Shown: piece by piece, positions 2,887-6,789 of the stretch
How the letters are laid out: each line of letters opens with the position of its first letter
Numbering within the stretch: position 1 is the first letter of the stretch
NCBI GenBank assembly: GCA_949290035.1
Contig: CASEQO010000100.1
Span: 1 to 10,123, forward strand
Direction of reading: 5' to 3'
Source of the DNA: an uncultured Mycoplasmataceae bacterium
Lineage (GTDB): Bacteria > Bacillota_I > Bacilli_A > Mycoplasmatales > Mycoplasmoidaceae
Length of the DNA: 10,123 bases
Notes under the pieces: model-generated
Seen by the model: only the letters and a program-made list of their open reading frames with translations
Database searches by the model: none
Told to the model about the DNA's origin: nothing
Made by a program: the position numbers and the translations under genes

Positions 2887-3510
2887 TTAATTAGATGGAT
2901 CACTATTATTAGCAACTGGTTGTGGTGGTTGTTGATAATTTGGTTGAGAAGCATATTGAGGATTATATTGTTGATATTGTTGATCTGGGTATTGATAATA
3001 TGGTTCACTAGGAGTTATTCCTAATCTTGAATTTATATTAGCAAATTCATTACTAATATATCTCATATTTTGTTCATATGCTTTCTTATAATTAGATGTT
3101 TGATTATAAATATATTCTTTTATATCATTAGCCATTTCTCTAAACATACTTGGATCTATTGATACATTACCCCCTCCGTAATATTGAGGTGGTGGAGGAT
3201 AATATGGTGCTGGAGCTTGTTGCGAAGGTAAAACAATTATAGATGGTTGAGATTGTGGAATATACATTGGGTGATGACCATTACAACAATTGTTTTGTTG
3301 TTGCATTCCACCAATCTGGAAAAGCGGAGCTTTTAGATTTCTTCTTTTTTTACCAATTACTTTTTTTAATTCATTAATTGCTAATATTGTTTTTTCATCA
3401 AATTTCTTAAGACTAATCTTGCCAGTAAAAAGATCAGCGATTAAACCAACATTAACATTTTTAAATTTTGGATTTGCACTTAATATTTGTATTAATTGAT
3501 TTCTATCCAT
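2887..3510 (-). CDS. Unrecognised Pro/Gln/Tyr-rich protein, 207 residues
   Basis: I do not recognise a family. Residues 1-60 look like a small folded module, charged and helical, ending in the basic patch KKVIGKKRRNLK. Residues 66-115 are low complexity, with GGMQQQ, a Cys-Cys-Asn-Gly-His-His cluster (C75, C76, H79, H80) and APAPYYPPPPQYYGGG. Residues 117-165 are again ordered-looking and helical (MFREMANDIKEYIYNQ, then MRYISNEFANINSRLG). Residues 167-207 are a Q/Y/P/N tail with PYYQYPDQQYQQYNPQY. There is no signal peptide, lipobox or membrane segment. Composition differs from the Asn/Lys/Ile-rich neighbours. Start: ATG at 3508-3510 with AAAAGG 9 bases upstream. The gene follows the DUF2156 gene by 40 bases and is last before a terminator. 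P/Q-rich proteins occur in mycoplasma cytoskeletal and attachment structures, which is an analogy only. Function unknown. Confidence 0.8.
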   Translation of the reverse strand: MDRNQLIQILSANPKFKNVNVGLIADLFTGKISLKKFDEKTILAINELKKVIGKKRRNLKAPLFQIGGMQQQNNCCNGHHPMYIPQSQPSIIVLPSQQAPAPYYPPPPQYYGGGNVSIDPSMFREMANDIKEYIYNQTSNYKKAYEQNMRYISNEFANINSRLGITPSEPYYQYPDQQYQQYNPQYASQPNYQQPPQPVANNSDPSN

Positions 3511-3550: not shown

Positions 3551-4477
3551 TTAAATTAATTTTTGTATTTTATTCTTTTTTATCTCAATTGGATAATATG
3601 ACAATTTAGATTTTCTAATATTTTCCATTCCAGCATCATCTTGTCTTGATACATACTTAGTATTAATATTATTTATTTTCAAATTAGATGATATTAAATA
3701 TTGATATGATCCTCTAAAATTTGTATCAGATCTTTCAAAAAATATTTCATAAATATCATTGTTTATAATACCTAATGTTGCTCCAATTATTTTATTATTA
3801 TAATAAATAACTGTTCCACTCATGAAACTATCATCATAATGATCTAAAACTTCTTTTAGGACATCATATTCATATTCGCCACTAGTTTCAGAATCATTAA
3901 TTTCTTGTTTGAAAAAATCTAAAAATTCTTGTTTTAAAGAAATATCAAACTGCTTTACTAAAATATCATTAGAATAATTATTTATAAAGAAATTTAAATG
4001 ATTTCTTTTCTTTTGTAATTTTTTACCAGCGAACGTTTTAAAAGATTCAGTTAAATATATAAAATTTGCATAAGTTTCATATATTGGATCACTAAATCCA
4101 TTTATTATTTCACTTGTTGAATTAATTAAATATATTTCTTTTTGATTATTATTAGTATATTCTTTTAAGATTTTTATTGATTTAGATATTAAATCATTTA
4201 TATTGTCTTTTTTATTATAAATAGGGCTAAAGATAACAAAATTCCCATCATAATTTCTTGAATCTAATTCATTATTAAATATTTGTTGCTTTTTTATATC
4301 TATTTGACCATATAAATAAATTGCATTATTATCATCATAAAAATAAATAGTTATTCCATAATGTGATCAAGTTAAATAGTTTAACATTGAAATATCATAA
4401 GTTGCATCTATTAAATTAACTTTGTTTTGAACTTCTTTATAATTGTTTCAATCTAATTTTATAAATTTATTATTCAT
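3551..4477 (-). CDS. DUF2156 protein, like the C-terminal domain of phosphatidylglycerol lysyltransferase (MprF)
   Basis: DUF2156 is the tandem-GNAT catalytic domain of MprF, which transfers an aminoacyl group from charged tRNA to phosphatidylglycerol. It also occurs as soluble stand-alone proteins of about 300 residues, mostly uncharacterised. This protein has 308 residues, fitting the stand-alone form, and lacks the flippase membrane part of MprF. The family hallmark is KTFAGKKLQKKRNHLNFF at about residues 150-167. Earlier, ISMLNYLTWSHYGITIYF matches the N-terminal half, and later, SGTVIYYNNKIIGATLGI plus the AGMENIRKSKLSYYPI segment match the second GNAT-like lobe. TGA codons encode Trp early in the gene. 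Its ATG (4475-4477) lies inside the end of the DUF368 gene, an 8-base overlap (ATGAATAA), so the two are translationally coupled. Lipid aminoacylation is a reasonable guess from the family; the true substrate is not shown. Confidence 0.86.
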
Positions 4478-5573
4478 TTATAATCACACTTTCTAAATTT
4501 ATATTAGTATCAATTTTTGTATTATTTTTATCATTTTTAATTTTTATGTAAATTAATGTATTAATAGATATAACTACAATAAGACTAACTATTATTAATG
4601 GAATAGCAATTGGATAATTTATAGATAAATCAGAATAATATTTTTTTCCAGCTAATAAAATAGCTATAAAAGATGAGCATATCATCCCAAAACAAAAATT
4701 ATAATATTGATCTTTAAATTTCTTGATTAATATATTAGTTGTAAATATGCAAGTAAATATCCCTAATAATATACATATTCCACAAATTAATAAATATATT
4801 ATATTAGATATAGGATGTTGAATAATCGTTCAATATATATCATCATATGTATTAAATAAGTATAAAGTTAAACTTCCACTTATTCCTGGAAATAACATAG
4901 CAAATCCAGCTACAAATGATGATATTGGAATTAATAATAAATTAGATACACTATAATCTAATTTATTAACATTTGATGAACTTGTTAAGTCAATACCATC
5001 TCTCAAAAAAAATACTATTAATCCAATTATTAATATTAATAAAAATCCTATAATAAATAATACTAAATTTATAATTTTCTTTTTATTATCTATATTCTCA
5101 TTTTTATAAAAAAATACTTTTGGCTTATTCGCTCATCAAAATAATGGTATGGAAAATAAACTAAAAAAAGAAAACATTAATATCAATACAATAGCATACC
5201 CTGTATCATTTATGAAAATTATATCTGAAAAATCTTTACCTAATATTTGACCAGTAGCTAAAAATTTACCAAAAACAGAAAACAAAACTAGCGATATTAC
5301 TCAAAACAAAACAAAAGGGACTAATCATAAAATATTTCTTCATCAAATATTTTTATTAAATGGTTTAAATATTCTTTTTGTTTTATAAATAAATGTTTCA
5401 TAAAAATTTAATAATGATAATGTTGTTCCTCCTGAATATCCAGGAATACCATCACTAATTCCCATTAATACACCATAAATAGATCTTTCAATTATCTTTT
5501 TTTTATGATCATTGTTAATGATGTTTTGATTTTCTACATTATCTATATTATTTTTAATATTAGATTTTGACAC
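4470..5573 (-). CDS. DUF368 polytopic membrane protein (undecaprenyl-phosphate translocase family)
   Basis: The protein has 367 residues. It carries the two inverted-repeat signatures of DUF368: GISDGIPGYSGGTTLSL near residues 38-54 and AGFAMLFPGISGSLTLYLF near 222-240, each at the start of a membrane half. About eight to ten hydrophobic segments are visible, with a hydrophilic 29-residue N-terminal and 25-residue C-terminal tail. DUF368 members (PopT) return undecaprenyl phosphate across the membrane in walled bacteria. Many TGA codons are read as Trp, including a consecutive pair at 5340-5345. The start is GTG (5571-5573): there is no ATG in frame between it and an upstream stop (5589-5591), and AAGGT sits 7 bases before it. 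The gene begins 48 bases after nusG with no clear terminator between them, and overlaps the DUF2156 gene by 8 bases. The carrier lipid in a wall-less cell is an open question. Confidence 0.92.
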
Positions 5574-5621: not shown

Positions 5622-6446
5622 CTAATCTATTTTTTTAATTTCGTTTACATTTACTTTAACTAAATTAGATCTTCCAAATAAATCTATTTCTATTTCAATA
5701 GATTTATCTTCATCATTAATATTTTTAATAATACCTATCTCACCAAAAAAAGCACCAGTTAGTAATTGAACACTATGACCAATTTTAAATTCATTTATTA
5801 AATTTGAAGAATTATTTTCTATTGTGTTTAAATTTTCTTGAACTTGATCTGAATTTTCATTTTCTAAAACAACTTCATTTTGTTGTTCGTTATTGTTTTT
5901 TGTATCAAAGAAATCATCATTTTGTATATTGTTAATTTCTTTAATAGTTTCTGGAATTATTGGCTTATTTTTGTCACCAGGTTTATCATTTATATAAGTT
6001 ACTATTTCTTCATTTTCTTGTGAAAATAACACTTCTATTTCATCTTCACTTATTGGAATTGGCTTAGCACCTTTACCAGAAGAACCAATGAACCCTGTGA
6101 TACCAGGTGTGTTTCTAATAATATATCAAATTTCATCAGTCATTATCATGTTAATAAAAATATATCCTGGAAACTTGTTATATACTTTAGTAGTCACTTT
6201 TTTATATCTTCCATCATCTAATGCATATCAATTTATGTATTTACTATTTTTCATTGATCTTGGAGCAGGGTTATTTTCATCAAAGTATTCAACTTGAATA
6301 TCTTTGTAATTAATAATCTTCATTCCAGATATATGATCATCAAAATCATATGCTTTAATTTTATCCATAAGTGAATTAAAAATCGACTCTTCACTTCCAA
6401 TTATAGTAGTTGCTATATATCATTGAAAATATTTATTATTTGACAT
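5622..6446 (-). CDS. nusG: Transcription elongation/antitermination factor NusG, with long insertions
   Basis: NusG binds RNA polymerase across the clamp and couples it to the ribosome or to Rho/S10. At 274 residues this is about 90 longer than typical bacterial NusG. The NGN domain spans residues 7-145: QWYIATTIIGSEE at the start, KFPGYIFINMIMTDEIWYII near 91-110, and RNTPGITGFIGSSGKGAKPI at 111-130. It carries an insertion (about 45-88) before the FPGY strand. The KOW domain is residues 219-274, with FKIGHSVQLLTGAFFGEIGI and a basic-acidic end. Between them lies a roughly 70-residue acidic, Asn/Gln-rich linker (about 148-217) of low complexity. Three or more TGA codons encode Trp, including one in the conserved EIWYIIRNTPG. 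The ATG at 6444-6446 has AAGGAG about 9 bases upstream. secE lies 34 bases upstream, the standard bacterial order. Confidence 0.95.
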
Positions 6447-6480: not shown

Positions 6481-6789
6481 TTAATTAACGTATGCTGTAA
6501 TTACATAAGTTATTACTGAAAAAATTGCAGCTAAGACAACAACAACAAACACTGTTATTAAAAAATAATATAAAATTTTATTTTTACTAATTCAAGAAAT
6601 TCTTAGAAATTCTTTTCCTATACCAAAAAATAATCTTCTAACTTTATAGTATTTTTCTGGATTAGCTTCTTTTTTTGCTTTTTTTTCAGCTTTCTTTGCT
6701 TTCTTTTCTTCTTTAGTTAGCTTTTGTTTTTTTTCTTTTTTATCTTTTTTCTTTTTATTGGTTAAAATTATTTCTTCATTGTTTGACAT
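6481..6789 (-). CDS. secE: Preprotein translocase subunit SecE
   Basis: SecE clamps the two halves of the SecY protein-conducting channel. The protein has 102 residues. Residues 12-41 form an extreme Lys-rich helix (about two-thirds Lys, with Ala and Glu). Residues 46-70 are the amphipathic surface helix with KVRRLFFGIGKEFLRISW, and residues 72-97 are the single membrane segment (KILYYFLITVFVVVVLAAIF). The one-TM form is usual outside the enterobacteria. A TGA at 6592-6594 is the Trp of the conserved helix-to-membrane junction. The start at 6787-6789 is one base after the rpmG stop, and its AAGGAG (6800-6805) lies within the last codons of rpmG, so the two genes are translationally coupled. 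nusG follows. Confidence 0.95.

Follow-up and report, generated by a model that had tools for sequence, protein, structure and literature searches.

Stand-alone DUF2156 proteins with two GNAT domains are represented by BT_3689, for whose structure (PDB 2HQY) acetyl-CoA has been reported in the active site, and by its homolog HPB8_1270 of Helicobacter pylori (PMC10700544). DUF2156 aminoacyl-lipid synthases are likewise an established family (PMC9437257), and DUF368 proteins have been treated as undecaprenyl-phosphate translocases (PMC9876793). Here we analyze a locus in which genes of these two families, DUF368 and DUF2156, overlap. It lies on a 10,123-nucleotide (nt) contig of an uncultured Mycoplasmataceae bacterium (CASEQO010000100.1 of assembly GCA_949290035.1; the whole contig, C100 of genome G000, is called the window below), part of an 876-kb genome in 159 contigs that is 78% complete and uses genetic code 4. 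The original prediction had proposed the two genes as a possible envelope-lipid module resembling MprF split into an enzyme and an unrelated transporter. The pair is real, older than one species and, in the genomes examined, bound to one genus; the DUF2156 protein is most likely an acyl-CoA-dependent transferase of the 2HQY type.

Gene Overlap and Comparison With Known Systems

On the minus strand, the gene for a DUF368/VCA0040-like polyprenyl-phosphate translocase family protein (4470..5573; 367 amino acids, aa; GTG start) is followed by that for a stand-alone DUF2156 protein with the LPG_synthase_C fold (3551..4477; 308 aa; ATG start). Both family assignments held (PF04018, E 7.6e-14; PF09924, E 9e-17; both above the curated Pfam cut-offs), and so did the 8-nt overlap that had been read from the letters: under NCBI code 4 both frames open exactly at these coordinates, and the DUF2156 start sits within the ATGAATAA end of DUF368 (4470..4477, minus strand). 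Code 4 and table 11 differ in the reading of seven DUF368 codons and two DUF2156 codons, and code 11 breaks up both frames. AAGG stands ahead of the DUF368 GTG and AAGGAG ahead of the upstream gene nusG; ahead of DUF2156 there is only AGAAAG. Judged by this layout, translational coupling of DUF2156 to DUF368 is plausible.

The solved structure closest to the window DUF2156 protein, by both sequence and fold, is 2HQY, which was also the sole match from this superfamily when solved structures were searched with the window protein or a profile. BT_3689 and HPB8_1270 are of the same type as the window protein, which shows 22% identity to 2HQY in structural alignment and is predicted to use acyl-CoA; HPB8_1270 is likened to it through the homology to BT_3689 given in PMC10700544, not by alignment. 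The window protein does share the MprF catalytic domain, as originally proposed, having PF09924 with a tandem-GNAT fold. It differs from MprF in consisting of PF09924 only, with no fused N-terminal flippase domain (PF03706, for which the window's own 78% complete assembly gave no match), in the GNAT partner found among its relatives, and in a structural similarity to MprF far lower than that to 2HQY. Nor did a search for a true MprF in this class succeed: none of the 12 stretches fetched after 120 genomes were searched for PF03706 was matched by the DUF2156 profile, and Pfam scans of four proteins revealed no PF03706–PF09924 protein, the sole PF03706 protein over the cut-off being 786 aa long and lacking PF09924. 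The aminoacyl-tRNA-dependent transferases FemX and Sbb17 show 8–11% identity to the window protein in structural alignments. In a tree of 44 DUF2156 proteins, which included 27 of the 39 rows found for the family of the window's genome (f1, probably Mycoplasmoidaceae), these 27 formed one supported clade (99/98), within which the window protein and those of its congeners G001 and G002 were unresolved.

Distribution of the Gene Pair

Among 149 genomes of relatives, the window's own included, DUF368 (PF04018) occurred in 18 and DUF2156 (PF09924) in 42. Inspection of all 18 DUF368 surroundings showed DUF2156 next door at two, the window and the congener G002, both with the order secE-nusG-DUF368-DUF2156 (the DUF368 gene of G047 stops at a contig edge, in a genome with no DUF2156 match). 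Because the two genomes share only 57% identity in DUF368 and 36% in DUF2156, the pair predates a single species. The genus includes a third genome, G001, in which DUF2156 lies at a different place, following uvrC, and DUF368 gave no match. The pairing is thus not confined to one strain, which would have counted against the original prediction, and in the genomes examined it was not seen beyond the genus. Two further database contigs probably carry both genes (P0005/P0123 and P0006/P0126), as judged from DUF2156 and DUF368 matches on same-sized contigs (11215 and 4229).

Across a phylum sample of 392 genomes, PF09924 was present in 65 and PF04018 in 161, and both were present in 26, vs. 26.7 expected under independence (p = 0.89). 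By listed coordinates (DUF368 places are not listed for G246 and only partly listed for G171, G434, and G485), the genes adjoin in the window's own genome only; in G221 they are ∼13.6 kb apart. The accessible part of the open-licence PubMed Central literature yielded no article naming both DUF2156 and DUF368 and no description of such a pair, in agreement with the earlier statement that the pairing was not known as described.

DUF368 and a Probable Polyprenyl-Phosphate Cycle

The DUF368 protein scored 52.3 bits against PF04018 (curated cut-off 26 bits), and its SDGIPGYSGGTT and FPGISGS segments align with those of relatives. With PopT/VCA0040 it has in common PF04018 over the cut-off, both PG-containing segments, and UppS in the genome; it differs in reaching 52.4 bits against the NCBIfam equivalog PopT (NF052563), far under the 400-bit cut-off, and in belonging to a host group without MraY/WecA (0 of 149 relatives) or BacA over the cut-off (G068 gave two weak matches; no search was made for DedA). 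The protein looks like a polyprenyl-phosphate translocase.

UppS is encoded in the window's genome at G000:C30:1953-2591 (PF01255, E 3.7e-59), beside a CTP_transf_1 gene. It was found in 47 of the 149 relatives, namely in 14 of the 18 with DUF368 vs. 33 of the 131 without (Fisher p = 2e-5, not phylogeny-corrected), and the four DUF368 genomes with no UppS match are assemblies 77 to 86% complete. A polyprenyl-phosphate role is suggested for DUF368 because of this co-occurrence. The penicillin-binding transpeptidase domain was matched in a single one of the 149 relatives (G009:C31:11047-11604, a 189-aa frame with no TGA inside), perhaps on a contaminating contig. A polyprenyl-phosphate cycle without peptidoglycan is likely in these cells. 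PMC9876793 describes Mycoplasma species as being without DUF368, DedA, and BacA, save a select few with DUF368 only.

At DUF368 loci of other genera, ten neighboring proteins from 7 of 16 loci were scanned with Pfam. An alpha/beta hydrolase adjoins DUF368 at three loci in two genera (L051, L058, and L061; G008, G052, and G068) and overlaps it in L058; the other scanned neighbors differ from one another (GDSL lipase, MraW, PP-loop protein, phosphoglycerate kinase, DnaJ, DNA polymerase III, and one protein without a family). DUF368 proteins of genus g11 (L065, L066, and L067; G029, G063, and G059) are without the N-terminal SDxIPGxSGG segment and keep the C-terminal PGxSGS. Row labels of five database proteins (P0146 and P0148–P0151) give DUF368 as fused to an isochorismatase-type domain (PF00857), and a similarly long open reading frame (ORF) of 524 aa at 7113-8687 of L057 (G049) is perhaps also such a fusion.

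GNAT Proteins as the Recurrent Partner of DUF2156

Among the relatives, a GNAT gene directly adjoins DUF2156, often overlapping it, at 22 of the 42 DUF2156 loci, and at three DUF2156 is fused to a different GNAT, Acetyltransf_3 (G010, G080, and G085; Pfam was run on G010 only). GNAT calls were made with our own profile, built from GNATs that adjoin DUF2156, so that the 12 of them from relatives match by construction; the relative, GTDB, and phylum locus sets also share some members and do not count as independent samples. At the loci from GTDB genomes, a GNAT adjoins DUF2156 in 25 of 33 cases; outside Mycoplasmatales the count is 16 of 17, and the one locus without an adjoining GNAT, from Bacteroidales, has a GT2 glycosyltransferase next to DUF2156. 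At 30 phylum loci, those of the top-scoring genomes among the 65 positives, DUF2156 and GNAT are fused in a single ORF at 16 (the call for L147 rests on Pfam, our own profile having scored it unfused) and directly adjoining at 11; in two of the remaining three, the contig stops at, or shortly beyond, the downstream side of the locus.

The GNAT assignment was confirmed with Pfam as PF13527 (Acetyltransf_9) in neighbors from three relatives, from G001, G002, G008, and G017, and from three genomes outside Mycoplasmatales; G003 and G043 had no PF13527 gene, and the neighbor at L088 (G060) matched no Pfam family, though our own profile gave 8.7e-35. The best solved structures for the L090 GNAT were the GNAT acetyltransferases 2i00 (E 5e-9) and 3n7z (E 1e-8), which we take to be Eis-like, and the GNAT sequences inspected retain an R-x-x-G-x stretch, presumably of the kind that binds CoA. 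The DUF2156–GNAT module is present in both congeners, and G002 has both links, DUF368–DUF2156 plus a convergent GNAT gene behind DUF2156. Other neighbors included a TupA-like ATP-grasp protein (PF14305) at L044 and L206 (G055 and G021), and 130-aa genes ahead of DUF2156 that are uninformative on function (ATP synthase epsilon chain, one scanned; ribosomal protein S9, two scanned). Within the accessible open-licence PubMed Central literature, no description of a DUF2156–GNAT fusion was found, and only PMC10700544 mentions both DUF2156 and GNAT.

These partner counts bear directly on the split-MprF proposal, in which DUF2156 would use aminoacyl-tRNA to aminoacylate a membrane lipid and DUF368, an unrelated translocase, would flip the product. 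The genes overlap and are kept in a second species, DUF2156 has the MprF catalytic fold, and aminoacyl-lipid synthases are established in its family. Such a lipid module is nevertheless unlikely because, in the genomes examined, the pairing is genus-bound and DUF2156 elsewhere usually has an acetyltransferase next to it or fused to it; moreover, the window protein is nearer to 2HQY than to MprF, and the co-occurrence of DUF368 with UppS points to polyprenyl phosphate. The genus-bound pairing and the GNAT as recurrent partner rule out a split MprF as the leading explanation. The earlier interpretation was partly supported.

Proposed Function of the Operon

We somewhat favor a lineage-specific operon with two mostly independent functions, namely the recycling of polyprenyl phosphate in a cell that has no wall and acyl transfer that depends on acyl-CoA. 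The UppS encoded in the genome would make polyprenyl phosphate, and DUF368 would bring it back across the membrane of the wall-less cell, where the returned carrier would serve some non-peptidoglycan glycan or glycolipid. DUF2156, of the BT_3689/HPB8_1270 type, would act in the cytosol as an acyltransferase with the tandem-GNAT fold, drawing on acetyl-CoA or a different acyl-CoA to modify a protein or amine; in many relatives it would work beside, or fused with, a second GNAT. The gene overlap would then reflect a genus-level rearrangement giving co-expression rather than a split MprF. The observations behind this proposal are the layout of the genes, the families they belong to, the predicted fold, the counts of partners, and the co-occurrence with UppS; acyl-CoA as the donor, the nature of the acceptor, what DUF368 carries and in which direction, and the independence of the two functions are predictions.

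Several observations weigh against it. After 2hqy, the fold ranking continues with FemX (16.8), MprF (16.3 to 14.9), and Sbb17/Sba18 (15.0 to 14.6), and acetyltransferases rank below these aminoacyl-tRNA-dependent transferases, at 12.5 and below (absence of a family from the VIA-align list does not mean that it is excluded). Neither GNAT link was found at 17 of the 42 relatives' loci, the window included, several of which end at contig edges; the window has no GNAT next door and its own 78% complete assembly no PF13527 match, and in G018 and G026 the PF13527 gene is ∼5.6 kb from DUF2156, not adjoining. The DUF2156–GNAT fusion lies directly upstream of a full-length alaS (896–903 aa) in G010, G080, and G085, all of genus g9, at spacings of 8 nt, 13 nt, or a 1-nt overlap (L217, L218, and L219). 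In the 149 relatives DUF368 and DUF2156 co-occur above chance (DUF2156 in 13 of 18 genomes with DUF368 vs. 29 of 131 without, p = 4e-5, not phylogeny-corrected), and retention of the gene order despite the considerable divergence between G000 and G002 may indicate selection for the pair.

The fold ranking is one of the points in favor of an alternative that we regard as rather unlikely, in which DUF2156 draws on aminoacyl-tRNA, as do FemX, VlmA, and Sbb17 relatives, and attaches the amino acid to an acceptor (protein, small molecule, or lipid), the GNAT partner N-acetylates the product, and DUF368 is a mere neighbor. It would also agree with the GNAT fused or adjoining at so many loci, with the Acetyltransf_3 fusion next to alaS, and with described PF09924 enzymes that have non-lipid acceptors, VlmA and, by proposal, Ady7 using aminoacyl-tRNA on hydroxylamines (PMC9379638). 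The acetyl-CoA reported for 2HQY argues otherwise, and the alaS-adjacent divergent fusion, which may point to a link with tRNA, was seen in a single genus and at none of the other loci, many of which cover just 1.5 kb per side. A more specific and quite improbable version has DUF2156–GNAT as a two-step enzyme across the class: DUF2156 would load an acceptor with the amino acid of an aminoacyl-tRNA (perhaps alanine, because the fusions adjoin alaS on its upstream side), and GNAT would N-acetylate that amino acid as a cap. The window's genus would have partly displaced the GNAT and coupled the transferase to a polyprenyl-phosphate translocase, and there the acceptor could be a membrane lipid of a wall-less cell.

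The co-occurrence among relatives and the retention of the operon in the genus could instead reflect one pathway, with DUF2156 acylating a sugar or lipid precursor in a polyprenyl-phosphate envelope pathway recycled by DUF368, by a mechanism unlike that of MprF. The TupA-like ATP-grasp genes next to DUF2156 in two genomes and the GT2 glycosyltransferase at the Bacteroidales locus are consistent with this. The phylum sample shows no association, however, and co-occurrence of DUF2156 with UppS in the relatives is not significant (17 of 42, p = 0.17); we give this reading little credence.

Neighboring Genes in the Window

Minus-strand genes in the window run in the order dnaX, ybaB, recR, then secE, nusG, DUF368, DUF2156, and the gene for a Gln/Pro-rich protein. 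The nusG gene (5622..6446, minus strand; PF02357, E 1.8e-17) lies 48 nt upstream of DUF368, as it also precedes DUF368 in G002, and its 274-aa product has a long acidic Asn/Glu-rich stretch between the N-terminal domain and the protein end. Adjoining it is secE (6481..6789, minus strand), which has a counterpart in G002; its PF00584 match (E 4.7e-4, 20.5 bits) is under the 22.7-bit Pfam cut-off and ranks behind two chance-like families. Together, nusG and secE are the probable operon head ahead of DUF368. Downstream of DUF2156, the Gln/Pro-rich 207-aa protein of unknown function (2887..3510, minus strand) matched no Pfam family and no GNAT, and stands where G002 has its convergent GNAT gene. 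The plus-strand region 1937-2729 holds a methyltransferase frame and, after it, a DUF1971 gene; the Pfam matches of the methyltransferase are limited to the C-terminal part of the models, and it may be truncated. Scans of the window for tRNAs and Rfam families gave no matches.

Implications

The observation behind the original prediction is sound, and its interpretation is unlikely. The locus serves as a warning that not every DUF2156 protein is half of an MprF: the stand-alone DUF2156 branch is tied to GNAT by neighborhood and fusion, and the sole experimental hint found for it in the accessible literature is acetylation. The DUF368 of wall-less mycoplasmas, noted as an oddity in PMC9876793, mostly accompanies a retained UppS; in wall-less mycoplasmas with DUF368, polyprenyl phosphate is therefore probably cycled for a purpose that is not peptidoglycan synthesis.
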